Source: Desulfobulbaceae bacterium (GTDB lineage Bacteria; Desulfobacterota; Desulfobulbia; Desulfobulbales; Desulfocapsaceae). From it: a stretch of 9,178 nt of DNA. The notes beneath the pieces are model-generated. The model was not told where the DNA came from and did not search any database. It was given only the letters and a program-made list of their open reading frames with translations. The DNA lies in NCBI GenBank assembly GCA_030632405.1, contig DAOVUU010000059.1, forward strand, positions 1-9,178, read 5' to 3'. This document shows positions 1 to 9,178 of the stretch, one piece after another; within the stretch, counting starts at the first letter, position 1, and every line of letters starts with the position of its first letter. Position numbers and translations under genes: made by a program.

Positions 1-708
1 AGAATGTCCTTCCAGGATAATTGTTCGTTCTTTCATGCCGGGGAACTGGGTGATGCTCTGAAATTCTTCACCATAGAGAATTCGGGAATAGATCTCATCG
101 GACAGCACCCACAGATCGTGTTTGACTGCTAATTGAGCTACTTTTTTCAAGTCCTCTTTTTGAATGACGCCACCGCATGGGTTTTGCGGGCTGTTCAGGA
201 TAAGCATTTTGGTTTTGGGACTGATCAGTCGTTCAAGTTCTGTCACATCAAAGATGAACTCTTTCTCTTCCAGCAGCGGCAGGGGAACAGCTTTTGCGCC
301 GACATAGTTGATCATCGATTCATATATGGGGAACCCGGGGTTCGGATAAATAATTTCATCGTCTACATCAGCGAGGAGAAGGATGGCGTAAAACATGATC
401 GGTTTACCGCCGGGGGTAATGACTATTTCATCTGCAGTATATGTGACATTTTTTCTTGTGCTGTTGATGTAGTCTGCGTAGGCTTCCCTGGCTTCCGGTA
501 ACCCCGTAGAGGGACTGTAGTGAGTATATCCGTCGTCCAGCGCCTTTTTTGCAGCATCTCTGATATTTTGGGGGGTATCAAAGTCAGGTTCTCCAATGCA
601 GAAACTGATGATATCTTTACCCTCTTCTTCCAGTTTTTTCACCTGGGCCAGTACCGAAAAGGCGGTTTCTGTTCCGAGTCTTGACATACTTCTGGCATAC
701 TGCTTCAT
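1..708 (-). CDS. PLP-dependent class I/II aminotransferase, N-terminal 236 residues (C-terminus beyond window)
   Basis: Fold-type I PLP aminotransferase of the aspartate aminotransferase superfamily, which moves an amino group between an amino acid and a 2-oxo acid in the cytoplasm. I translated it by hand from ATG at 708, which is preceded by AAGGAG (719-724). Visible landmarks: Y64-S-P-S-T-G-L-P-E-A-R (substrate/PLP region), T98-P-G-G-K-P (cofactor phosphate loop), Y121-P-N-P-G-F-P, N172-S-P-Q-N176-P-C-G-G (the NPxG motif, with C in place of the usual T) and S203-D204-E-I-Y207 (Asp and Tyr contacting the PLP ring). The window ends at LEGHS, so by family alignment the Schiff-base lysine should be the very next codon. 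About 150-160 residues are missing relative to the usual ~390. It lies 101 nt downstream of the GlcG-like gene on the same strand and may be cotranscribed with it. Substrate cannot be told; the PGGKP variant phosphate loop places it away from the best-studied AspATs. Confidence 0.93.
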   Translation of the reverse strand, partial: MKQYARSMSRLGTETAFSVLAQVKKLEEEGKDIISFCIGEPDFDTPQNIRDAAKKALDDGYTHYSPSTGLPEAREAYADYINSTRKNVTYTADEIVITPGGKPIMFYAILLLADVDDEIIYPNPGFPIYESMINYVGAKAVPLPLLEEKEFIFDVTELERLISPKTKMLILNSPQNPCGGVIQKEDLKKVAQLAVKHDLWVLSDEIYSRILYGEEFQSITQFPGMKERTIILEGHS

Positions 709-761
709 GGATCGTGTGCTCCTTCAGCCTAAACAACCTGTTGATTTAACGGAATGAACTT

Positions 762-780
762 AAAACAAATTCCTTGTTTT
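762..780. repeat. AT-rich inverted repeat between the two minus-strand genes
   Basis: AAAACAA (762-768) and TTGTTTT (774-780) form a 7-bp stem with a 5-nt loop in the 101-nt gap between the GlcG-like gene and the aminotransferase. It has a single G/C pair and no U-run after it on the minus strand, so it is at most a weak terminator or processing site. Confidence 0.25.
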
Positions 781-809
781 TTATTGCAGTGTTTCTGGAC
801 TAAGGTACT

Positions 810-1232
810 CTAAAGTGTTGCCATCAGGGCGTCGATTCCCGCCTGTGCAACTTTTTCGTCCTGATCGGGGCTGCCGGAACTGCAGCCGATACCACCGACC
901 GGTTCACTATCGATAAAAATCGGCAGGCCTCCCGCAAAAATCATGAAACGCCCCTGGATACTTGAGTTGATACCAAAGGCAGGACCTCCAGGTCCGCTGA
1001 CCTCACCATAGGTGCGGGTTGATTTGCGGGCCGCTCCGGCCGTGAAAGCCTTGTCGATGGCGATGGTGATGCTGGTGATACGTGCATTGTTCATACGCTG
1101 AAACAGCAGCAGATTTCCGCCGTCATCGACGATGGCAATATCCATATCAACACCGATTTTCATTGCTTTCTTTTCAGCTGCTATCATCATCAGCTTTGCA
1201 TCGTCGAGAGTAAGTTTTGGGACACGCTTCAT
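810..1232 (-). CDS. GlcG/HbpS family (DUF336) protein, possible heme- or cofactor-binding
   Basis: A 140-aa single-domain protein of the GlcG/HbpS (PduO C-terminal-like, DUF336) family. The pattern is typical over the whole length: L7-T-L-D-D-A helix start, A33-I-V-D-D-G-G-N-L with the following R46-M, a K61-A-F-T-A-G-A-A-R-K helix, G79-S-P/G-rich turn, the F99-A-G-G-L-P-I strand and G113-G-I-G-C-S-S-G-S-P-D-Q-D-E. Characterised relatives bind heme (Streptomyces HbpS) or sit in glycolate or corrinoid/diol loci, but many have unknown roles. The start is ATG at 1232, with GGGAGG (1241-1246) 8 nt upstream. No signal peptide is seen, so it is probably cytoplasmic. It is the first gene of a possible two-gene minus-strand unit with the aminotransferase, and is divergent from the universal stress gene. 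Length is normal. The family call is firm; the function is not. Confidence 0.9.
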   Translation of the reverse strand: MKRVPKLTLDDAKLMMIAAEKKAMKIGVDMDIAIVDDGGNLLLFQRMNNARITSITIAIDKAFTAGAARKSTRTYGEVSGPGGPAFGINSSIQGRFMIFAGGLPIFIDSEPVGGIGCSSGSPDQDEKVAQAGIDALMATL

Positions 1233-1274
1233 ATGTGGTTCCTCCCTGGATTGAGTATGTGTTAAATTGAGTGC

Positions 1275-1304
1275 TATATAAATTTTTTTTTTGTTTTTTT
1301 ACAA
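1275..1304 (-). promoter_or_regulatory. Candidate sigma-70 promoter for the GlcG-like gene
   Basis: Read on the minus strand: TTGTAA (1304-1299), 18 nt of A/T-rich spacer, then TATATA (1280-1275), about 40 nt upstream of the GlcG-like start. The spacer is a long A-tract, so the surroundings are curved, low-complexity DNA and chance matches are easy. Confidence 0.4.
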
Positions 1305-1359
1305 AGAAAAAATTTGCTGAAGGCGTTTTTTTTCAAATTCTCACCCCGCCACTCCGTTA

Positions 1360-1388
1360 TTGAATTAATCGGTTTTCTATCGTATAGT
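1360..1388 (+). promoter_or_regulatory. Candidate sigma-70 promoter for the universal stress gene
   Basis: TTGAAT (1360-1365), 17-nt spacer, TATAGT (1383-1388). Both boxes are near consensus and the spacing is optimal. The start of transcription would fall near 1395, giving a leader of about 60 nt before the UspA-like ATG at 1456. Confidence 0.55.
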
Positions 1389-1444
1389 AGAGCATGAGAT
1401 TATTATGACCTGGAGCAATCATTACTGTTTGTAAATAATAGAAC

Positions 1445-1450
1445 AGGAGG
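1445..1450 (+). promoter_or_regulatory. Ribosome binding site that decides the UspA start
   Basis: A perfect AGGAGG ends on the G of an in-frame GTG at 1450. A start at 1450 would overlap its own Shine-Dalgarno, so the ATG at 1456, 5 nt downstream of AGGAGG, is the start. Confidence 0.85.
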
Positions 1451-1455
1451 TGTTT

Positions 1456-1884
1456 ATGCAGATCAAAAATATTCTTCTTCCGATAGATGGTTCCATCTAT
1501 TCAGATCACGCCACTGACCACGCAGTTTATCTGGCCAAACTCTCCGGTGCCCGTATTCACGCTGTCTGCTGCCATGAATGGCGTAAGTACAGGCAGGACG
1601 TTGTTGAACTGCTCGTAAAGGAATTGCAGGTAAATGTCGCGAAACGAGCTGAAAAAATCCTTGAGAGAACGGCTCAAACTATTGAAGAGGCAGGTGTTGA
1701 GTGTACCTGCAGGACTGTTTCAGGAGAACCTGGCAAAGTGTTAACTGATCTGGCTAAATCAAAGGAATTTGACCTGATCGTAATGGGCTCACATGGCCAT
1801 TCCGAGATAATAGGACTGTGTCTCGGCAGTGTTACGCTGAAAATGATTCGCACTATTTACTGCCCGGTTATGATAGTCTCGTAA
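1456..1884 (+). CDS. Universal stress protein (UspA family), ATP-binding type
   Basis: A 142-aa single Usp domain, the normal length for a one-domain member. It starts with the family's typical first strand, I6-L-L-P-I-D11-G-S, where the Asp is the adenine-side residue. It ends with D106-L-I-V-M-G-S-H-G-H, followed by the nucleotide signature G111-x2-G114-x9-G124-S125, which marks it as an ATP-binding (MJ0577-like) rather than a non-binding UspA-type member. The closing strand C-P-V-M-I-V-S is typical. It is cytoplasmic and usually dimeric; family members help survival under starvation, redox or energy stress, but the particular role is unknown. It has its own candidate promoter (1360-1388), an ideal ribosome binding site and a hairpin at the stop codon, so it is probably monocistronic. 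Confidence 0.95.
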   Translation: MQIKNILLPIDGSIYSDHATDHAVYLAKLSGARIHAVCCHEWRKYRQDVVELLVKELQVNVAKRAEKILERTAQTIEEAGVECTCRTVSGEPGKVLTDLAKSKEFDLIVMGSHGHSEIIGLCLGSVTLKMIRTIYCPVMIVS

Positions 1885-1905
1885 AGAGAAAGGCTTCTCT
1901 TTTCT
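1883..1905 (+). terminator. Possible intrinsic terminator of the universal stress gene
   Basis: AAAGAGAA (1883-1890) pairs with TTCTCTTT (1895-1902) around an AGGC loop and is followed by TCT. The hairpin overlaps the stop codon (1882-1884). The stem has only two G-C pairs and the U-tract is short, so termination efficiency is uncertain. Confidence 0.4.
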
Positions 1906-1972
1906 AAACAGGGACAGTTTAGTTGTAGTTTTCTGCATTTTTATGGCGACTACGGTTGAGGGAGTCCGCTTG

Positions 1973-2002
1973 TTGAGAATTTTCTTGCGAATATTCTAAT
2001 AT
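1973..2002 (+). promoter_or_regulatory. Candidate promoter of the GntR regulator gene
   Basis: TTGAGA (1973-1978), 18-nt spacer, TAATAT (1997-2002). The -10 box lies inside the left arm of the 34-bp palindrome, as expected if a repressor bound there blocks polymerase. A weaker alternative is TTGCGA (1985-1990), 17 nt, TATTAG (2008-2013). Confidence 0.45.
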
Positions 2003-2021
2003 CATGATATTAGAATATTCG
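1988..2021. promoter_or_regulatory. Perfect 34-bp palindrome, candidate autoregulatory operator
   Basis: The left arm CGAATATTCTAATATCA (1988-2004) is followed directly by its exact reverse complement (2005-2021), 17 bp per arm with no spacer. GAATATTC, itself a palindrome, occurs at both ends (1989-1996 and 2013-2020), around a TAATATCA|TGATATTA core. It lies 35 bp before the GntR start codon and overlaps the candidate -10 box. Such a long perfect palindrome in front of a dimeric FCD-type regulator suggests an operator, possibly for two dimers. It is not followed by a U-tract, so it is not a terminator. It does not match the classical FadR (TGGTnnnACCA) core. Confidence 0.6.
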
Positions 2022-2056
2022 GATATACAATATTGTTTACCAGAGGTGTCCCTTTT

Positions 2057-2806
2057 ATGTTTGAATCAGCACGGCAGCATAAAACAACAGATATAATAAT
2101 TGAGAGAATTCGCACCGCCATTCTTGAAGGCAAGTTGCAGCCAGGTGATAGATTGCCTCCCGAAAAGCAGCTGGGGGAACAGTTCAGGGTCAGCAGACAG
2201 ACTTTAAGAGAGTCGATACGGGCCCTGGAACACCTTGGTCTGATCGTAATGCGTAAAGGTAACGGCGGTGGTGCCTTTATAGCCGAAGTGGAGGAACGTG
2301 TCGTAACGCAGAATCTGGCCAATTATCTCTACTTCAAAAATCTCACCATCGAAAACTTATCAGAACTGAGGCGCATGATGGAACCCCACGCCGCAGGTTG
2401 TGCTGCACAACGGATGTCAACGCAGGACCTGAAAAAACTCAAAAAGATCAATTCGGTTACACAGGTGAATTTTGATCTCCAGAACTGGAGTGAAGTTACC
2501 AGGAACGAGATTGATTTTCATCGACTCATAGCTCGTCAGACTCATAACCCAATCTTTATTCTGATGCTCGATTTTGTTGAAACCCTTCTTGAGGATTTCA
2601 AGAATATCCTCAAACCTGATGAAGAATTTATGAGATCTGTGCTGGTTTCCCATGAGGAGATCTATGAAGCGATTTCGAAGGGGAAGAGGGAGGCCGCCTC
2701 ACAGGCAATGCTTGATCATGTGGAAAAGGTTGAATTACATCTGGCCAAGTTGAAAAAAAATCAGGCTGGAAGCAGGCTTTGGCAGAACTGTTTGCAGGCT
2801 GCCTGA
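2057..2806 (+). CDS. FadR/GntR-family transcriptional regulator with FCD domain
   Basis: A 249-aa regulator, normal length for the FadR subfamily. The N-terminal winged helix (about residues 10-78) has the GntR signature: I22-L-E-G-K-L-Q-P-G-D-R-L-P-P-E-K-Q-L, then the recognition helix F43-R-V-S-R-Q-T-L-R-E-S-I-R-A-L-E, and the wing G61-L-I-V-M-R-K-G-N-G-G-G-A-F-I. The C-terminal all-helical FCD effector domain (about 98-228) keeps the metal-site residues D153-x-H155, H199 and H221, so it probably binds a metal plus a small carboxylate ligand. The start is ATG at 2057, with GAGGTG (2043-2048) upstream; a TTG at 2033 would add 8 residues unlike the family and is rejected. The stop is TGA. The next gene, an aldehyde dehydrogenase, starts 124 nt downstream on the same strand and is the likely target; the palindrome at 1988-2021 suggests autoregulation. 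The effector is unknown, perhaps an organic acid or acyl-CoA. Confidence 0.93.
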   Translation: MFESARQHKTTDIIIERIRTAILEGKLQPGDRLPPEKQLGEQFRVSRQTLRESIRALEHLGLIVMRKGNGGGAFIAEVEERVVTQNLANYLYFKNLTIENLSELRRMMEPHAAGCAAQRMSTQDLKKLKKINSVTQVNFDLQNWSEVTRNEIDFHRLIARQTHNPIFILMLDFVETLLEDFKNILKPDEEFMRSVLVSHEEIYEAISKGKREAASQAMLDHVEKVELHLAKLKKNQAGSRLWQNCLQAA

Positions 2807-2865
2807 TTTTGATAAATGGGAAATGGATAGAGAAAAATTACAGTAACGAAGCAGGTGAAAAGTTT

Positions 2866-2882
2866 TTAAGATGTCGTCTTAA
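2866..2882. promoter_or_regulatory. Inverted repeat upstream of the aldehyde dehydrogenase, candidate operator
   Basis: TTAAGA (2866-2871), TGTCG, TCTTAA (2877-2882): a perfect 6-bp inverted repeat with a 5-nt spacer, 17 bp in all, typical in size for a GntR-dimer site. It lies 48 bp before the aldehyde dehydrogenase start. I do not see a convincing -35/-10 pair in this gap (2807-2930), so the gene may be read from the regulator's promoter or from a non-sigma-70 promoter. Confidence 0.4.
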
Positions 2883-2930
2883 TGTGAGACTACGAATTAT
2901 TTGATTTAAACAACCTGGAGGAAACTAGAG

Positions 2931-4469
2931 ATGCAGGAAGAACCGAAGAAGCTGAAGTACCATTGTAATGGACAATGGCTTGAATCTAAAACGACAGAAT
3001 ATATGGACTGCTACAATCCATCTACTGGAGAAATTATAGCCTATGCACCACAGTGCACTAAAGATGAGGTAGAAGGTATTATTGCGGCGGCAAATGCAGC
3101 TTATCCTGCCTGGTCAGAGACTCCTGTGAGCAAGCGGGTACAAGTTCTTTATCGCATGAAACATCTGATTGATAAAAATTTAGATGAATTGACCCACCTG
3201 CTGGCAAAAGAGATGGGCAAGCAGTGGTATGAGGCTATGGGAGACGTTCTGAAGGTGAACGAGGTTGTGGAATTTGCCTGTGGAGCACCCCATTTAATGA
3301 AGGGTGAGTCCCTCATGCAGGTGTCTACAGGGTATGATACCGTTCAATATCACCACCCCGTTGGTGTTTTTGCCGGAATCGCACCGTGGAATTTCCCGGC
3401 CATGATCCCCCACGGCTGGATGACTCCTATCTGCATTGCCACCGGTAACTGCATTATTCTTAAAGCAGCCAGTTTTGTTCCGCAGTCGTCGATGCGAATG
3501 ATGGAACTCTGGCAGGAAGCCGGACTTCCGGACGGTGTAGTGAATGTATTTACCGCGGGCCGTAACGAGGCAGAGATCCTTCTCAAGCACCCGGCAATAA
3601 AGGGTGTCTCATTTGTCGGTTCGACTAAGATAGGCAAACATATTTATTCTACAGCAGCAGCACATGGGAAAAGAGTCCAGGCACTTACAGAGGCAAAAAA
3701 CCATGCTCTGGTTCTGAGGGATTGTAAGCTTGAGAGAACTGCCCGGGGGATCATGAATGCCTTTTGCGGATGCGCCGGTCAGCGCTGCATGGCACTGCCA
3801 ACAATCGTTGTTGAGAATTGCATAGCGGATGAACTGGTAGCCTATCTTAAAAAATTCGTAGGAGAACTGAAAGTTGGGCCCGCCTACGATAAGGAAACAA
3901 ATATGGGGCCGGTGGTTAATCAGGGGCATCGCGAATTTGTATTGAACTGGATACAGAAAGGTCTGGATGAGGGTGCCGATTTAATAGTAGATGGTCGAAA
4001 TCCCCAGGTTCCAGAAGGTTACGAAAACGGTTTTTATGTCGGACCGACAATTTTTGACAACGTAACGGAAGAAATGTCGATTGGGGCTGAAGAAATATTT
4101 GGCCCTGTCCTGTGTATTAAAAGGGTAGAAAATTTCGAAGAAGGGCTGACTCTGATGAATTCGAGTCGTCATGCCAACGGCTCAGTAATTTATACCCAGA
4201 ATGGACATTATGCCCGTGAATTTTCCAAAAGAACAGATGGCGGCATGGTTGGCATCAATGTCGGTATTCCAGTGCCTCTTGGTATTTTTGGTTTCACTGG
4301 CCATAAAGAATCATTTTTTGGCGATTTGCATGTTATGGGAGGAGACGGGTTTAAGTTTTTTACAGAAACAAAGAACGTAACCGCCACATGGTTCCCGGAA
4401 GACGGTGAAATTTCGACCAAAGTCGATACCTGGGATGGAACTATAACATCTTTACCGGAAGAGGAATAA
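2931..4469 (+). CDS. Aldehyde dehydrogenase, methylmalonate-semialdehyde dehydrogenase (MmsA)-like, probably CoA-acylating
   Basis: A 512-aa NAD(P)-dependent aldehyde dehydrogenase closest in motif to MmsA, which oxidises (methyl)malonate semialdehyde to an acyl-CoA. MmsA-like marks: V144-G-V-F-A-G-I-A-P-W-N154-F-P-A-M-I-P-H-G-W (oxyanion Asn154), S240-T-A-A-A-H-G-K-R-V-Q-A-L before A-K256-N-H, the nucleophile in G280-C-A-G-Q-R-C286-M-A, E388-I-F-G-P, and S461-F-F-G-D-L-H near the C-terminus with T478-E-T-K-N-V-T. The canonical ALDH general base in ELGGK is Leu252 here, as in MmsA, which fits thiol transfer to CoA rather than hydrolysis. Oddities: the LGGAKNH of MmsA is L252-T-E-A-K-N-H, and the KPSE nucleotide motif is K178-A-A-S. 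GGAGG (2917-2921) lies 9 nt before ATG. It is downstream of a FadR-type regulator and ends in a strong terminator. The substrate is uncertain because of the altered motifs. Confidence 0.92.
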   Translation: MQEEPKKLKYHCNGQWLESKTTEYMDCYNPSTGEIIAYAPQCTKDEVEGIIAAANAAYPAWSETPVSKRVQVLYRMKHLIDKNLDELTHLLAKEMGKQWYEAMGDVLKVNEVVEFACGAPHLMKGESLMQVSTGYDTVQYHHPVGVFAGIAPWNFPAMIPHGWMTPICIATGNCIILKAASFVPQSSMRMMELWQEAGLPDGVVNVFTAGRNEAEILLKHPAIKGVSFVGSTKIGKHIYSTAAAHGKRVQALTEAKNHALVLRDCKLERTARGIMNAFCGCAGQRCMALPTIVVENCIADELVAYLKKFVGELKVGPAYDKETNMGPVVNQGHREFVLNWIQKGLDEGADLIVDGRNPQVPEGYENGFYVGPTIFDNVTEEMSIGAEEIFGPVLCIKRVENFEEGLTLMNSSRHANGSVIYTQNGHYAREFSKRTDGGMVGINVGIPVPLGIFGFTGHKESFFGDLHVMGGDGFKFFTETKNVTATWFPEDGEISTKVDTWDGTITSLPEEE

Positions 4470-4496
4470 TTAATAATTATCGCTCTTTTTCAGCTT

Positions 4497-4540
4497 AAAC
4501 CGGCTGCATTCTTATTTCTTAAGATTGCAGCCGGTTTTTT
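4497..4540 (+). terminator. Strong Rho-independent terminator after the aldehyde dehydrogenase
   Basis: AAACCGGCTGCA (4497-4508) pairs perfectly with TGCAGCCGGTTT (4526-4537) around a 17-nt loop, and the right arm runs into T6 (4535-4540). The core is a GC-rich 8-9 bp stem. On the minus strand there is no comparable U-run, so it mainly serves the plus-strand gene. Confidence 0.92.
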
Positions 4541-4566
4541 ATTTCTATTGCCTTAACGTGAGACTT

Positions 4567-4812
4567 TTACCAGCCATACTCAGCCAGTTGAGTGAAAAAA
4601 ATTAATATGGCCCCTAAAAAAATTGCCCCCATGGCGATGGTAGCAAAACATATTTGAATCTGCTCTTTGTATAAGGAGAACAGCTTTCGTGTTGTAGAAA
4701 GAGGCTGCGTCAGATGTTTGTTTTTATTGAGTTGAGTAAGATGGTTAAGCGTCTCTGAAAAGATTATCTGCGTTAAAGAAATTGTGTCTGTTATTCCTGC
4801 ACCGTTTTTCAT
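4567..4812 (-). CDS. Small single-pass membrane protein, unrecognised (81 aa)
   Basis: I do not recognise a family. The N-terminal two thirds is polar, rich in T, N, Q and K (about residues 1-50: I11-S-L-T-Q-I-I-F-S-E, L25-T-Q-L-N-K-N-K). One hydrophobic segment follows, about 53-74 (I54-C-F-A-T-I-A-M-G-A-I-F-L-G-A-I-L-I-F-F), then a short tail ending E-Y-G-W. The layout suggests a C-tail-anchored inner-membrane protein with a cytoplasmic N-terminus. An in-frame ATG further upstream (4851) exists, but GGAGGG (4820-4825) sits 7 nt before the ATG at 4812, which decides the start. It is divergent from the selenoprotein gene, with 260 nt between start codons, and convergent to the aldehyde dehydrogenase. 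Codon use is unremarkable and the ribosome binding site is good, so it is probably a real gene, though homologs cannot be checked here. Confidence 0.65.
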   Translation of the reverse strand: MKNGAGITDTISLTQIIFSETLNHLTQLNKNKHLTQPLSTTRKLFSLYKEQIQICFATIAMGAIFLGAILIFFTQLAEYGW

Positions 4813-4819
4813 TGTTGTT

Positions 4820-4825
4820 CCCTCC
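4820..4825 (-). promoter_or_regulatory. Ribosome binding site that decides the start of the 81-aa gene
   Basis: On the minus strand GGAGGG lies 7 nt before ATG at 4812. The two in-frame upstream ATG codons have no comparable site and would place the GGAGGG inside the coding region. Confidence 0.7.
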
Positions 4826-4859
4826 ATGGTTGTCTGTTTCATAAAAACCAAACATGTTA

Positions 4860-4886
4860 GATGGTTGTGCTATCTATGACGCCATC
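4860..4886. repeat. GATGG...ACGCCATC mini-repeat (third copy)
   Basis: GATGG (4860-4864) and CCATC (4882-4886) form a 5-bp stem. The element begins TAGATGG and ends GACGCCATC, the same ends as the copy at 8316-8342, but the interior differs (17 nt, without the T6 run). It lies in the gap between the divergent 81-aa and selenoprotein genes. Confidence 0.4.
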
Positions 4887-4896
4887 GTGACAATAG

Positions 4897-4915
4897 GTTA
4901 TAGAAGGACTATAAC
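4897..4915. promoter_or_regulatory. Inverted repeat in the divergent gap, candidate operator
   Basis: GTTATAG (4897-4903), AAGGA, CTATAAC (4909-4915): perfect 7-bp arms with a 5-nt spacer, about 50 bp upstream of the -35 box of the selenoprotein gene. There is no U-tract after it. Its size and position suit a dimeric regulator, but no match to a known operator is recognised. Confidence 0.35.
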
Positions 4916-4966
4916 AGGGGTGGGGTATCACAGAGTGAGCCCCCCTGGATTTAATTTTAAATTTTT

Positions 4967-4995
4967 TTGACACTTGCTCATTTTGGGTATATGCT
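4967..4995 (+). promoter_or_regulatory. Candidate sigma-70 promoter of the selenoprotein gene
   Basis: A perfect TTGACA (4967-4972), 17-nt spacer, TATGCT (4990-4995, 4 of 6 match to TATAAT). This would give a leader of about 70 nt before the start at 5073. Confidence 0.55.
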
Positions 4996-5072
4996 CTCAA
5001 TTCAAGCTGGTAAAAAAGATGACTTTTACGAAACCATCGCGGTTAATTGCAGATAAAATTAAAGGAGATGAC

Positions 5073-6425
5073 ATGGAAAAAGGGGACAAGCTTGTGATTG
5101 TTGGTTGTAGTGGGTCTGGCGGTCCCGCCGCCATGATGGCAAAAAAATTGATGCCTGATGTGGATGTTACCGTTATTCGTAAGGAAAAATTTTTTATTGT
5201 CAGGTGAGCTCTTCCACATGTAGTGGCCGGTCTGGCCACAGATGATTCAATTGTTGCTCCTGATAAAATGCTTGAAAGTGCAGGCGTTAATGTTCTTTGG
5301 GAGGAAGTGACTAAGGTGGATGCAGTGCAAAAGGCTGTTTTCGTATCCAGTGGAGAAAAGTTTAAATATGACAAGTTGTTCCTGGCCACCGGCTCCAGTT
5401 CGTTTGTACCCCCGATCGAAGGTAAGGACCTTGAGGGGGTCATGACCCTGCGCGGGCTTCCGGATGCTGAAAAAATCAAATATCATTTAGCGGGGAAAAA
5501 GGTTAAAAATATTGCATTTATTGGAGCTGGTTTTATCAGCATGGAAATCGCTTCACTGTTAGCGGAAACTAATCCCGATACATTTAATATCACAGTGATA
5601 GAACTGATGGATTGGCCCCTTCCTCTTATGCTGGATAAAGATATGTCTAGCTTTGTCAGAGAATATCTTGAGGAAAAAGGACTGAACATACGGACTGGAG
5701 AAAAAGTTGAAAAACTGATCGGCCGGGATGGGCAGGTTGCAGGAGTAGAATTGTCATCCGGGGAAACCCTTGATGCGGATATGGTTTTTATGAATGTAGG
5801 TGTTCGGCCAAACATTGGACTTGCCAAGGAGATCGGACTGGAGATGGGGCAGTTCGGCATAAAAGTAAACACCTTTCAGGAAACATCAGATCCGGATATT
5901 CTGGCTGGCGGTGACTGTGTTGAAAAATTTAATTTCATCACGGGGAAACCTACACCGGGACAGCTCAGGGGGCCTGCTGTTATACAGGGACGGCTGGCGG
6001 CAAAACGGCTTGCGGGCTATGATATCGAATTCCCCGGCGTGCTGGATGCCGGCGGCTGTAAAATGTTTGATATGGTAATTGCCGCTACCGGCTTCACAGA
6101 AGAAAACGCAGTTAAAGAAGGTTTTGAAACAGTAAGTGCAGTAGTTGATTCGAGAAGTAAACATGGAATGATTCCCGGTATGAAACCGTGGAAGATTAAG
6201 CTGGTTTTTGACAAAAAAACTGAGAAATTGATTGGTGGTCAGATTGTCAGCCATGCCATTGCACCGGCAAGAGAGATTGATGCTGTCACCGCATTTATCC
6301 TTGGTGGTAACACAATCCGGGAGCTGACAACTTTTACATCTGCCTGTAATCCGGATATTTCCTGCGAGCCGAGCATGGAACCCATTACTATTGCTGCTGA
6401 GCAGGCTCTGCAAAAGTTGAAGTAA
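5073..6425 (+). CDS. Selenocysteine-containing FAD/NAD(P)H-dependent disulfide oxidoreductase (CoA-disulfide reductase/NADH oxidase family), Sec45 encoded by TGA
   Basis: A 450-aa flavoprotein read through an in-frame TGA at 5205-5207. Family enzymes use NAD(P)H and FAD to reduce CoA disulfide, polysulfide, peroxide or oxygen. Domains: FAD Rossmann (V10-G11-C-S-G14-S-G16-G), the redox motif F41-I-V-R-Sec45-A-L-P at the place of Cys42/43, the NAD(P)H Rossmann G151-A-G-F-I-S-M-E with E177 ending the second strand (favouring NADH), N-V-G-V-R-P-N, L-A-G-G-D-C (FAD Asp), then the dimerisation domain to K450. Length and ends are normal for the family. AAAGGAG (5061-5067) sits 5 nt before ATG 5073. 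Downstream codons keep the family sequence, and a SECIS-like hairpin follows the TGA. C425 and C431 lie in the C-terminal segment, which in relatives faces the partner's active site. A nonsense mutation or sequencing error is the main alternative. The substrate is unknown. Confidence 0.85.
5205..5240 (+). promoter_or_regulatory. Bacterial SECIS element with the Sec UGA codon
   Basis: UGA at 5205-5207 is followed, after 15 nt, by GTGGCC (5223-5228), loop GGTCT (5229-5233) and GGCCAC (5234-5239): a perfect, GC-rich 6-bp stem. The loop GGUCU is the apical sequence of the E. coli fdhF SECIS that SelB recognises. The loop begins 21 nt after the UGA, within the range seen for bacterial elements, compared with about 18 nt in fdhF by my recall of that sequence. 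The stem is inside the coding frame and encodes V-A-G-L-A-T. A weaker competing hairpin, CCAC (5214-5217) with GTGG (5223-5226), is possible. Confidence 0.8.
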
Positions 6426-6469
6426 TCCTGGACGGGCGATACCCGCAACCCATAAGCTCTATTATTTCA

Positions 6470-6542
6470 CCACAGAGGACACAGAGAGCACAGAGAAGAC
6501 AAAAAGAAATTCTTTTCTCTGTGCTCTCTGTGTTCTCTGTGG
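6470..6542. repeat. CACAGAG-type long inverted repeat between convergent genes
   Basis: The left arm 6470-6499 and right arm 6513-6542 form a 30-bp stem (28 Watson-Crick and 2 G-U pairs) with a 13-nt loop. Each arm holds three CACAGAG-like units spaced about 8-10 bp apart. The right arm is followed by TTTAAGC and then T6 (6550-6555), so it can act as a terminator for the plus-strand flavoprotein gene, and as a barrier between it and the convergent hslO. Similar CACAGAGGACACAGAG repeats are common in intergenic regions of many bacterial genomes (general knowledge, not checked here). Confidence 0.85.
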
Positions 6543-6589
6543 TTTAAGCTTTTTTCCCGTTTACCGGGGAGTTGGGTATTAAGTGTCGT

Positions 6590-7480
6590 CTATCCTGTTT
6601 TTTTATGGGGGATGGTTGCAAGTATGGCCTTTATTTCATGTTTATTAAAGGTATAGGTATCCCGGCAGAATTGGCAGTGGACTTCTGCTTTGCCCTCTTT
6701 TTGCAGAAGTTGTAGCAGGTCGTCATAGCCAAGAGAGAGGAGTGCACTCTCCATTTTCGTTTTGCTGCAACTGCAGGAGTAGAACAATTTGGATTGGCCC
6801 GTTTTTCTATGGGGAACATTTTTAAAGAGAGTGGAAAGGATGTCCCCGGGATTTTTCCCGTCGAGGAAAAACTGGGCTGGAGATGGCAGGCGGTTGATCT
6901 CTTTTTCAATATGGGACAGTGAATTTTCCTCTGCAGGTGGAAGTGACTGGATCAAAAAACCACCCGATGCACCAATTGAAGCGTCTCTGTTAATCATCAT
7001 GGTAAGCGCAATGGCTGAAGGCGTTTGTTCAGATGTGGAAAGATAGTAAGCAAGATCTTCGCCGACCTCACTGGTGTAAAGTTGTATGGTTCCAGGGTAT
7101 TTTTTGTTATGGCCGATATCTTTGGTTACGGTCAGAAATCCTGCTCTGCCTATTCCAGATGCGACATCAACAGATCCTTTTTTAAGTGGGACGTCTCCAT
7201 GAGGGTTGGCAATATAGCCCCGCACCCAGCCGTCATAACCCGCTTCGGTAATTATTTTCCCCAAAGGGCCGTTGCCTTCAAATTTGAGCTGGAGAGACTG
7301 GCCATCTTTTAACAGGGCGGCGAGTAGAGCAGCCCCTGTAAGTGCCCTGCCAAGAGCAACTGCGGCCAGAGGTCCAACATCGTGCATCTTGCACGCTCTG
7401 GAGACAAGGGCTGTTGTATTGCAGGCGATACCAAAAAACCGGCCTGATTCTGAAATAACTCTTTCTAAAATGTCTGTCAT
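6590..7480 (-). CDS. hslO: Hsp33 redox-regulated molecular chaperone
   Basis: A 296-aa cytoplasmic holdase chaperone of the Hsp33 family. Under oxidation its zinc-bound cysteines form disulfides, and the protein unfolds in part to hold aggregation-prone proteins. The N-terminal chaperone domain is complete (M1-T-D-I-L-E-R-V, then A-A-V-A-L-G-R-A-L-T-G-A-A-L-L-A, G-P-L-G-K-I-I-T-E, Y-x-x-S-E-Q-T-P-S-A). The C-terminal redox switch has C236-x-C238, then 30 residues, then C269-x-x-C272, all four zinc ligands present. Length is close to E. coli Hsp33. The start is ATG at 7480, with a weak GAGAG upstream; an in-frame TTG at 7534 would add 18 residues not found in the family. The stop is TAG. It is convergent to the selenoprotein gene, with the CACAGAG repeat between. 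Identification is secure. Confidence 0.96.
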   Translation of the reverse strand: MTDILERVISESGRFFGIACNTTALVSRACKMHDVGPLAAVALGRALTGAALLAALLKDGQSLQLKFEGNGPLGKIITEAGYDGWVRGYIANPHGDVPLKKGSVDVASGIGRAGFLTVTKDIGHNKKYPGTIQLYTSEVGEDLAYYLSTSEQTPSAIALTMMINRDASIGASGGFLIQSLPPAEENSLSHIEKEINRLPSPAQFFLDGKNPGDILSTLFKNVPHRKTGQSKLFYSCSCSKTKMESALLSLGYDDLLQLLQKEGKAEVHCQFCRDTYTFNKHEIKAILATIPHKKTG

Positions 7481-7603
7481 GGTTCTCTCTATAAACTGAG
7501 GGTAGTGTTGTAGCAGGTGGTTTCGCATCTGCAATATACCGTTAAACTGGTGGAGATGAACAGAAAAAACTATTGATCTCGGACATCTCTATTGAAGTTT
7601 ACG

Positions 7604-7632
7604 TTTACGTATTGGTCAGAAAAGGGTATTGT
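7604..7632 (+). promoter_or_regulatory. Weak candidate promoter of the chalcone-isomerase-like gene
   Basis: TTTACG (7604-7609), 17-nt spacer, TATTGT (7627-7632). Both boxes match consensus in only 4 of 6 positions. The 221-bp gap 7481-7701 between the hslO start and this gene holds no other clear element except a short TTTACG tandem (7598-7609). Confidence 0.3.
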
Positions 7633-7701
7633 GTCTCCGTGCGCTTGCAGTTTTCAGTCCGTATTTATTCTTAAAAGTCTTCACTAAATGGAGGAGAAAC
7701 A

Positions 7702-8268
7702 ATGCGTGTACTCTTATTGTGTTGTGCGTTAATGATGATTGCAATCCCGGTTGGGGCAAGAGAAATTGCCGGAGTTGACGTTGCCGAAACGCTGCAGAGT
7801 GATGGCGGAACGGCTTTACACCTGAATGGTGCCGGGATACGGAAGAAGCTCTTCTTTGATATTTATATCGGCCAGCTGTATATGGAGCATCCCTCTAACA
7901 CTACTGAGGGGATACTTGGCGCAGCAGGACAGAAGAGAATGATCATGCATTTTCTCTACAAGAAGGTGGAGAAAGAAAAACTGACTGCCGGCTGGGATGA
8001 AGGGTTTGAGGGAAACAGTACAGCGGATGAGCTGCCGCTTTTACAGGAGCGTATTACCCAATTTAACAGCTTATTCGTTGATGTGAAAAAAAATGATGTC
8101 GTCGTGCTCGATTTTAGTCCGACAACGGGAACCCGAGTGGTTATTGCCGGAGAAGAAAAAGGAATTATCGAAGGCAAGGATTTTAATGATGCTCTGTTGA
8201 AGATATGGCTGGGGAAAAAGCCGGTTGCTTCGGGGTTGAAAAAGGATCTTCTGAACTATAAGAAGTGA
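7702..8268 (+). CDS. Exported chalcone isomerase-like protein
   Basis: A 188-aa protein of the bacterial chalcone-isomerase-like (Chalcone_3 type) family. A signal peptide is clear: M1-R-V, hydrophobic L4-L-L-C-C-A-L-M-M-I-A-I-P, then V-G-A19|R20 as the likely cleavage site, so the mature protein is periplasmic. The family pattern L41-N-G-A-G-I-R-K-K-L-F-F-D-I-Y-I-G-Q-L-Y is well kept, followed by the long mixed alpha/beta domain, V132-V-V-L-D-F-S-P, G144-T-R-V-V-I-A-G and the terminal W169-L-G-K-K-P-V with L-K-K-D-L-L. Plant-type isomerase activity is not expected; the role in bacteria is unknown, though plant relatives bind fatty acids. GGAGGAG (7690-7696) lies 5 nt before ATG. The stop is TGA. 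A tandem repeat fills the 72 bp to the convergent cupin gene. Confidence 0.9.
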   Translation: MRVLLLCCALMMIAIPVGAREIAGVDVAETLQSDGGTALHLNGAGIRKKLFFDIYIGQLYMEHPSNTTEGILGAAGQKRMIMHFLYKKVEKEKLTAGWDEGFEGNSTADELPLLQERITQFNSLFVDVKKNDVVVLDFSPTTGTRVVIAGEEKGIIEGKDFNDALLKIWLGKKPVASGLKKDLLNYKK

Positions 8269-8277
8269 TGGCATTGT

Positions 8278-8348
8278 AGATTTTTTACGACGCTACTAAA
8301 TTTGCAGCAACGAAGTAGATGGAGATTTTTTACGACGCCATCAGATTT
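8278..8348. repeat. Two tandem copies of an AGATTTTTTACGACGC repeat between convergent genes
   Basis: Copy 1 (8278-8303) and copy 2 (8323-8348) are 22 of 26 identical, with a 45-bp period. Both contain the identical 16-mer AGATTTTTTACGACGC. Copy 1 is bracketed by GTAG (8276-8279) and CTAC (8293-8296), copy 2 by GATGG (8318-8322) and CCATC (8338-8342), so each can form a small hairpin with different stem letters. The pair occupies nearly all of the gap between the chalcone-isomerase-like gene and the cupin gene, and copy 2 includes the cupin stop codon. A related element lies at 4860-4886. Confidence 0.7.
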
Positions 8349-8691
8349 CCGGGGCTCCTGAGGGGATAAGACAGACGAAAACAAAATCCTCTTCTCCCCG
8401 GTTTTTTATTTGATGTTCTTCATTTCCGGGAATAAAAACAACAGTACCGCTTTGTATATCACGCCATTCCCCTTTTCGATAGACCTGTCCTTTGCCGGAA
8501 TGGACAAACACCTCATGTTCCCAGTCGTGTGTGTGCCTGAGGGTGAAACCTCCCGGCTCTACGGTAAAAACACGCATACAGAAGTTGTCTGCCTGGTCTT
8601 CTTTACCGATAACAACTCGTCCGGTAACACCTTTTGCAGCTTCACTGTCATATTTATGGGTCGGACTTTCCTGGTAGTCTACAATTTTCAT
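8341..8691 (-). CDS. Small single-domain cupin, probable metal-binding
   Basis: A 116-aa cupin (beta-barrel) protein. Cupin motif 1 is present as G48-x4-H53-T-H55-x4-E60 followed by G66, and motif 2 as G82-T-V-V-F-I-P88-G-N-x-x-H93-x3-N97. The three His and one Glu are the usual ligands of an iron, manganese, nickel or zinc ion. The protein is cytoplasmic (no signal peptide). Family members range from small sugar or amino acid metabolism enzymes to sensors, so no reaction can be assigned. The start is taken as ATG at 8691; a GTG at 8700 is also in frame, and neither has a good Shine-Dalgarno (AAGTGA is the best match), so the first three residues are uncertain. It ends with TGA inside the tandem repeat. 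A transporter gene lies 95 nt upstream on the same strand. Confidence 0.88.
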   Translation of the reverse strand: MKIVDYQESPTHKYDSEAAKGVTGRVVIGKEDQADNFCMRVFTVEPGGFTLRHTHDWEHEVFVHSGKGQVYRKGEWRDIQSGTVVFIPGNEEHQIKNRGEEDFVFVCLIPSGAPEI

Positions 8692-8747
8692 TTGTGTCAC
8701 TTTGTGTTTTTTTTAATTGGTTGATGAGCGGCTTGGTCTCACTTAAG

Positions 8748-8775
8748 ATTGTAATTGCTCAGGGAAAGAATGCAA
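8748..8775 (-). promoter_or_regulatory. Candidate promoter of the cupin gene
   Basis: On the minus strand: TTGCAT (8775-8770), 16-nt spacer, TACAAT (8753-8748). The -10 box matches 5 of 6, the -35 box only 3 of 6. It lies in the 95-nt gap after the transporter gene. Confidence 0.35.
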
Positions 8776-8786
8776 GAGTCGGGGGC

Positions 8787-9178
8787 TTAGAGTTTTTTAA
8801 TGTTACCGGTCACTCCCATATATATTGCGGTGAGGGTGATAATAACCCCCATCCAGTTTACCAGGTCTGTCGGGCGTGAAAAGAAGAGGACATCCCAGAT
8901 AAATGAGAGTGCAGGCTGAAGTAACAGGATAAATCCTGTAAGAGACGTTCTGATCCTGGGCATGGCATTGGCAATAAGGAGCCAGCCCAGGACTTGACTG
9001 AAAAAAGCGAGAGAGAGAAGTATGGTCAGATTATACGTGTCAGGAATGGTAAATGGATCGCCATAGATGGTCATTTTCAGAGCAAAGCAGCAGGTAGTAA
9101 CAAAAGATATGAGCATCAGGGTGTAGAAAAAAGATGGCTGGTTATGCTGTATCTTGCGCAGGCTGATTAAAAAACCTG
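8787..9178 (-). CDS. EamA/DMT-superfamily transporter, C-terminal 129 residues (start beyond window)
   Basis: The reading frame is open from the window edge (9176) through to TAA at 8787-8789. The visible part is a polar stretch (about L-R-K-I-Q-H-N-Q-P-S) followed by four hydrophobic helices. The second-to-last helices carry the DMT/EamA pattern L-G-W-L-L-I-A-N-A-M-P-R-I, followed by G-F-I-L-L-L-Q-P-A-L-S-F-I-W-D-V-L-F-F, a final helix W-M-G-V-I-I-T-L-T-A-I-Y-M-G-V and a short basic tail N-I-K-K-L. This is the second EamA repeat of a ten-helix drug/metabolite exporter of the inner membrane. The usual Glu after the LQP helix (F-x-x-E) is replaced by S-R-P. The substrate is unknown. The cupin gene follows on the same strand. 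Confidence 0.85.
   Translation of the reverse strand, partial: GFLISLRKIQHNQPSFFYTLMLISFVTTCCFALKMTIYGDPFTIPDTYNLTILLSLAFFSQVLGWLLIANAMPRIRTSLTGFILLLQPALSFIWDVLFFSRPTDLVNWMGVIITLTAIYMGVTGNIKKL

Follow-up and report, generated by a model that had tools for sequence, protein, structure and literature searches.

A predicted selenocysteine variant of a CoA-disulfide reductase-like flavoenzyme in a Desulfobulbaceae bacterium and its relatives

The window analysed here is the whole 9,178-nucleotide stretch of contig DAOVUU010000059.1 (positions 1 to 9,178, assembly GCA_030632405.1) from a Desulfobulbaceae bacterium, and its gene of interest, at 5073-6425 on the forward strand, has 450 codons from an ATG start to a TAA end, with a single internal TGA at codon 45. 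An earlier sequence-only reading had reported this TGA at 5205-5207, preceded by 44 codons, followed by 405 and accompanied by no other lesion, all of which was borne out by re-translation, and had proposed selenocysteine (Sec) at residue 45 of a relative of CoA-disulfide reductases and NADH oxidases. This proposal is supported by conservation of the TGA, by relatives with cysteine, by a hairpin of the selenocysteine insertion sequence (SECIS) type and by the Sec machinery, and on such comparative grounds 5073-6425 is almost certainly a genuine selenoprotein gene. The features referred to below are the following:

5073..6425, + strand: predicted selenoprotein gene for 450 residues including Sec45; domains Pyr_redox_2, Pyr_redox, Pyr_redox_dim (frame, domain search)
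5205..5207, + strand: in-frame TGA, predicted Sec45, at the redox-cysteine position (codon conservation, alignment to solved relatives)
5223..5239, + strand: predicted bacterial SECIS hairpin, stem GTGGCC/GGCCAC, loop GGTCT at 5229-5233 (folding, published rules, synonymous constraint)
5106..5108, + strand: Cys12, in the FAD-binding GxSxxG loop, Cys in 34/35 Sec-clade rows (alignment)
6168..6173, + strand: Met366-Ile367, against Tyr-Tyr in the Archaeoglobus fulgidus NADH-dependent persulfide reductase, Npsr (alignment; presumed counterpart of the Tyr361 region in Staphylococcus aureus CoA-disulfide reductase)
6345..6347, + strand: Cys425, aligned with a Tyr of Npsr (alignment; probably the site of Tyr419 of the S. 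aureus enzyme)
5062..5067, + strand: AAGGAG, ribosome-binding-like site 5 nt upstream of the ATG (sequence)
4967..4995, + strand: weak promoter-like motif TTGACA-17-TATGCT (motif search; 1 in the region against 3.0 expected by shuffling)

The searches covered 193 genomes of relatives, 257 of the class and 395 of the phylum, partly overlapping, together with named genome contigs. Among the distinct clade loci with DNA, collected by similarity and then counted, the codon position holds TGA in 39/40 and TGT in 1/40 (L083). The 39 remain from 50 clade TGA rows after 8 and a further 3 repeats were dropped (the 3 being L074, L079 and L085); incomplete loci (L035, L070, L071 and L072) are counted only for codon and hairpin, and locus L033 of genome G045, whose 5' part is missing, is excluded from the codon count. 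The least selected figure is that of the class search, which at E <= 1e-95 gave 22 matches in 21 genomes: one TGA and no other stop occurs in 21 of these matches, the 22nd is L033, and TGA is thus found in 21/21 matches covering the codon. The same TGA is present in two finished chromosomes, those of Desulfosarcina widdelii and D. alkanivorans, and cultured carriers of the gene include D. widdelii, Desulfofustis glycolicus and Desulfoprunum benzoelyticum. Codons 1-44 differ from those of L020 by 16 synonymous and 5 non-synonymous codon changes (ranges over five compared loci, 16-19 and 5-8), and because these differences fall mainly at third positions, the part upstream of the TGA appears to be under protein selection. 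A pseudogene or a sequencing error, with the TGA as a chance lesion or a misread TGC or TGT from which it is one base away, may be suggested by a fragmented assembly that is 73% complete, but is refuted by the conservation of the TGA in 39/40 distinct clade loci, including both finished chromosomes, and by protein-level selection on either side of it, so that its chance is negligible. In L033, on contig C23, a frame-broken stretch takes the place of the ortholog's 5' part; it looks peroxiredoxin-like by eye and is perhaps an assembly chimera.

The redox Cys of relatives had been expected at the same place, and this holds: in alignment with three solved relatives, the TGA residue falls on the Cys of their C-G-(L/I)-P motif, and residues 1-60 used as a query returned 11 proteins with Cys at the aligned position in 11/11. 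Two orthologs also carry Cys, namely L083 (TGT, 57% identical) and P0004 (C at 45, 79% identical), the latter known as a protein only. Since three other genes of the window terminate with TGA, its decoding at codon 45 would be a site-specific recoding.

The predicted hairpin lies 21 nt from the UGA and pairs GUGGCC with GGCCAC (6 bp) around the loop GGUCU, at -13.4 kcal/mol. Rules for bacterial SECIS (bSECIS) elements, as set out in a 2026 review, comprise a loop of 3-9 nt with a G within its first two positions, a stem of 4-16 bp, a distance of 16-37 nt from the UGA and an energy of at most -7.5 kcal/mol (PMC13188914), and the hairpin at 5223-5239 agrees with every one of them. Because it sits within coding sequence, constraint was tested at synonymous sites. 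The Gly53 codon is GGT in 39/39 TGA loci and, among 20 invariant Gly columns over 32 full rows, is the uniform one (32/32, the next-best column reaching 22/32). Codon 54 is CTG in 37/39 TGA loci, the others being one CTT and one GTG, and the lone CTT (L035) is accompanied by GCA for GCC, which gives an A-U pair. Overall, 229/234 hairpin pairs are kept, against a mean of 183.0 and a maximum of 199 in 2000 synonymous draws made with each gene's own codon usage. In the Cys ortholog L083 the corresponding stretch is GTT TCC GGC CTG GTG ACT, with one of six pairs being U-U and the loop GGCCU. Folding of its 17-mer gives -1.9 kcal/mol, where 37 Sec loci range from -6.0 to -10.1, a decay that fits a Sec-to-Cys reversion. 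In more distant Cys loci (L084, L086 and L087, 42-45% identical), 2-3 of the 6 pairs form. RF00031 (SECIS_1) had 0 matches in the genome and 0 in any of 14 control genomes, and is hence uninformative; scanning 5000-5500 against Rfam at permissive settings brought up a single, unrelated match (E 4.3). Taken together, Sec decoding of UGA45 can be considered well supported from comparison of sequences.

Gene callers had been predicted to split this gene, as mechanical open reading frames indeed do, with a 5' piece that ends at 5207 and a 400-aa frame that begins at GTG 5223. Database proteins have 383-410 aa in 119/120 of the best matches listed, and within the aligned subset of these, 16/16 begin 3' of the Sec codon. 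It is the form that would be expected if the TGA were a true stop, the enzyme being the 400-aa protein from GTG 5223 and the 5' part giving a short product of its own. However, a protein started at 5223 is missing the redox residue as well as the GxSxxG loop and the N-terminal strand that binds FAD, codons 1-44 show conservation in the frame of the remainder, and both the synonymous constraint on the hairpin and its decay in the Cys ortholog would be left without a role, which makes a true stop very improbable. The shortening thus leaves 119/120 of the best public proteins listed without their active site, and recognition of the Sec codon would restore a complete redox enzyme across many sulfate-reducer-type genomes. 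Examples of NCBI entries that begin after the Sec codon are P0022 (Desulfocastanea, 403 aa), P0083 (Desulforhopalus, 388 aa) and P0114 (Desulfoprunum, 387 aa).

Part of the Sec machinery is present in the source assembly, which is 73% complete and in 421 contigs. It contains a C-terminal SelB fragment with two SelB winged-helix domains and the SelB barrel, interrupted by a contig end and scoring 89.9 bits, under the full-length cut-off, as well as selD (L016, contig C6), which has its own in-frame TGA in a CGU loop and is thus itself a predicted selenoprotein gene. Among 19 relatives, selA is found in 14 and tRNA-Sec in 16, and in 10/11 and 11/11, respectively, of those at least 90% complete with at most 5% contamination, with a tRNA-Sec model that is not perfectly specific, as it also exceeds its cut-off in 5/14 control genomes. 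Two further SelB-profile matches in the searches (L001 and L002, 192 bits) were rejected, being EF-Tu-like frames of 398 and 401 aa by eye.

The window protein exceeds the Pfam cut-offs for PF07992 (188.2 bits, cut-off 26.1), PF00070 (60.8, cut-off 22) and PF02852 (40.7, cut-off 25.3). It has in common with the CoA-disulfide reductases of S. aureus and Pyrococcus horikoshii the fold, the FAD/NAD domains and the position of a single redox residue. In CoA-disulfide reductase, Tyr361 and Tyr419 are catalytic, and crystal structures exist for the Y361F and Y419F mutants; the window protein has instead Met-Ile and Cys at these sites, on an S. aureus numbering inferred from alignment end points. The C-terminal Cys is at 425 in 25/35 Sec-clade rows and two residues earlier in the other 10, and the active-site motif of the clade is UALP or USLP. 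Among solved structures, A. fulgidus NoxA-3/Npsr (6PFZ) matches best in both sequence and fold, and there the TGA residue lies opposite the Cys of R-C-G-L-P. The R-C of Npsr before LP resembles the R-U of the window protein, and the VIE(M/L)MD stretch is similar, whereas Npsr has Cys rather than Sec, a C-terminal rhodanese domain and Tyr at two sites; both Tyr are absent from the window protein, which has no rhodanese match and ends at residue 450. Could this selenoenzyme be a peroxide- or oxygen-reducing NADH peroxidase or oxidase, with Sec45 cycling through selenenic acid? The active-site His10 of NADH peroxidase presumably maps to Gly14, by hand mapping of what we take to be the peroxidase motif, and this residue is Gly in 35/35 Sec-clade rows. 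Overall, such an activity is a serious but less likely alternative.

The preferred reading, to which we give a probability of roughly four in five, is that a full-length Sec45 protein is made by means of the UGA and the SECIS-type hairpin, and that it is a dimeric NADH-dependent FAD enzyme reducing small disulfides, persulfides or polysulfides. SelB would recognise the 5223-5239 hairpin and bring in Sec-tRNA; in the finished enzyme, electrons would pass from NADH to FAD and from FAD to a Sec45 selenenylsulfide, and the Sec45 selenolate would attack the S-S substrate, Sec45 taking over the role of the family's redox cysteine. This mechanism is moderately supported. NADH rather than NADPH would be used, judging from the motif VIELMD, which resembles the VIEMMD of A. 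fulgidus Npsr, whose Glu183 is said to disfavour NADPH. As to the physiological substrate, we lean weakly towards a small per- or polysulfide over CoA disulfide. In CoA-disulfide reductases a Tyr assists the redox Cys across the dimer, and because it is replaced here by the conserved Cys425, Sec45 may, at rest, form a selenenylsulfide with the partner chain's Cys425. A more tentative extension, which we consider possible but rather doubtful, is a two-centre enzyme in which Sec45 and the other chain's Cys425, at the Tyr site, would form an intersubunit selenenylsulfide relaying FADH2 electrons, an arrangement like that of thioredoxin reductase that would have arisen independently on the CoA-disulfide reductase scaffold, with a Cys-to-Sec change separate from that of the UGxP lineage.

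Several observations weigh against the preferred reading. The best NCBIfam match is CoA-disulfide reductase (TIGR03385) at 268 bits, below a cut-off of 578.8 that is exceeded in 0/395 phylum genomes. The hairpin has an ordinary folding energy (z -0.69, with 39/200 shuffles folding as well), and 5/6 pairs are still possible in L083, which makes its decay partial rather than a loss. Covariation at pair 20/32 is in the expected direction, but only 3 contrasts on supported branches are independent (median p 0.5 in a sign test), so that the test is underpowered. Of the sel genes named for a check by the sequence-only reading, selB (as a fragment) and selD were recovered; neither selA nor selC was detected in this assembly (73% complete), yet both occur in the relatives as given above. 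For selC, 7 places were considered, none of them over the tRNA-Sec cut-off (150/212 candidates scored), and ARAGORN calls the tRNAs there Cys, Arg, Leu, Tyr, Trp, Leu and Arg. Likewise, the single-contig relative G011, which has the TGA gene and tRNA-Sec, gave no selA match. Finally, no conserved neighbour or operon pointing to a pathway was seen in the 16 loci compared, with flanks of about 1.5-3 kb.

In the tree, the 35 Sec rows of full length group with the Cys rows P0004 and L083 in one clade (99/96) that sits beside a Cys clade of 13, with P0004 inside, adjoining L057 (99/93). The simplest reading would be one Cys-to-Sec gain followed by two reversions; two gains and one loss are equally costly, at three steps. 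Across the phylum, one in-frame TGA occurs in 41 of the best 150 CoA-disulfide reductase profile matches listed (E <= 1e-70), and 38 of these were read (L108-L145). Since TGA is at the redox position in 38/38, Sec appears to be common in this family within the phylum, with motifs that include UGxP (UGIP among them), UETP, USEP, UPTP, UDLP, ULMP and others. In a quick 107-row tree (SH-like approximate likelihood ratio test, SH-aLRT, only; L093 left out as a long branch), the 38 loci fall outside the window clade and are separated from it by Cys groups (SH-aLRT 100% at main splits), on a sampling that is uneven, as these loci were picked for their TGA and few Cys rows come from the same branch. 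The hairpins of the ten loci that were folded are unlike the window hairpin in sequence, and this difference, together with the separation in the tree from the 38 sampled Sec loci, suggests that the window clade is a separate Sec lineage.

That Sec variants of this broad family had been reported before, as half-remembered in the sequence-only reading, is correct: the family's Sec variant is tabulated in 2006 as a Sec-containing Geobacter metallireducens 'NADH oxidase' (PMC1794560), one GOS sequence of it is given (PMC2398784), and a Sec CoA-disulfide reductase is listed in reviews of 2022 (PMC9312934) and 2026, the latter with the motif UGxP (PMC13188914), which differs from the UALP/USLP of the window clade. 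The Geobacter oxidoreductase (COG0446, TIGR03385) resembles the window protein in having Sec for the redox Cys within the same superfamily; WP_011365774.1 is probably this protein, judging from a shared citation, and its motif, rather than its sequence, would place it among the 38 other Sec loci. Another FAD/NAD(P) selenoprotein is the NAD(P)/FAD-dependent oxidoreductase reported by deep-Sep from Desulfosediminicola, also of the Desulfobulbia (PMC12013277), which belongs to a different COG (COG1252) and has the Sec motif HxxU according to the review table, in which the entry 'Type III sulfide quinone reductase' probably denotes it (PMC13188914). The deep-Sep study also counts 38 known selenoproteins in D. 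widdelii PP31 (PMC12013277), a set that may include L063, so that the window clade is perhaps already listed under its family name. No description of the UALP-type clade was found in the portions of the literature on Sec flavoenzymes that were available, supplements being outside the search. What appears to be new is a UALP branch split by Cys lineages from the other sampled Sec lineages, in which the Tyr is replaced by a conserved C-terminal Cys. The close Cys (P0004) and Sec orthologs of this branch offer a natural comparison for what Sec confers in one flavoenzyme, for which the sequence-only reading had suggested faster turnover or resistance to over-oxidation as possible gains.

Around the gene, the largest family of shared neighbours is found in 4/16 loci (downstream in L052, L054 and L058, upstream in L061), and consists of a related second flavoprotein gene, with Pyr_redox_2 in L052, the sole member scanned. 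Just 3' of the window gene, at 6469-6543, lies a 34-bp inverted repeat (91%) of CACAGAG units; with 14 genomic occurrences of the unit pattern and 0 in a reversed control, it is a dispersed palindromic repeat.
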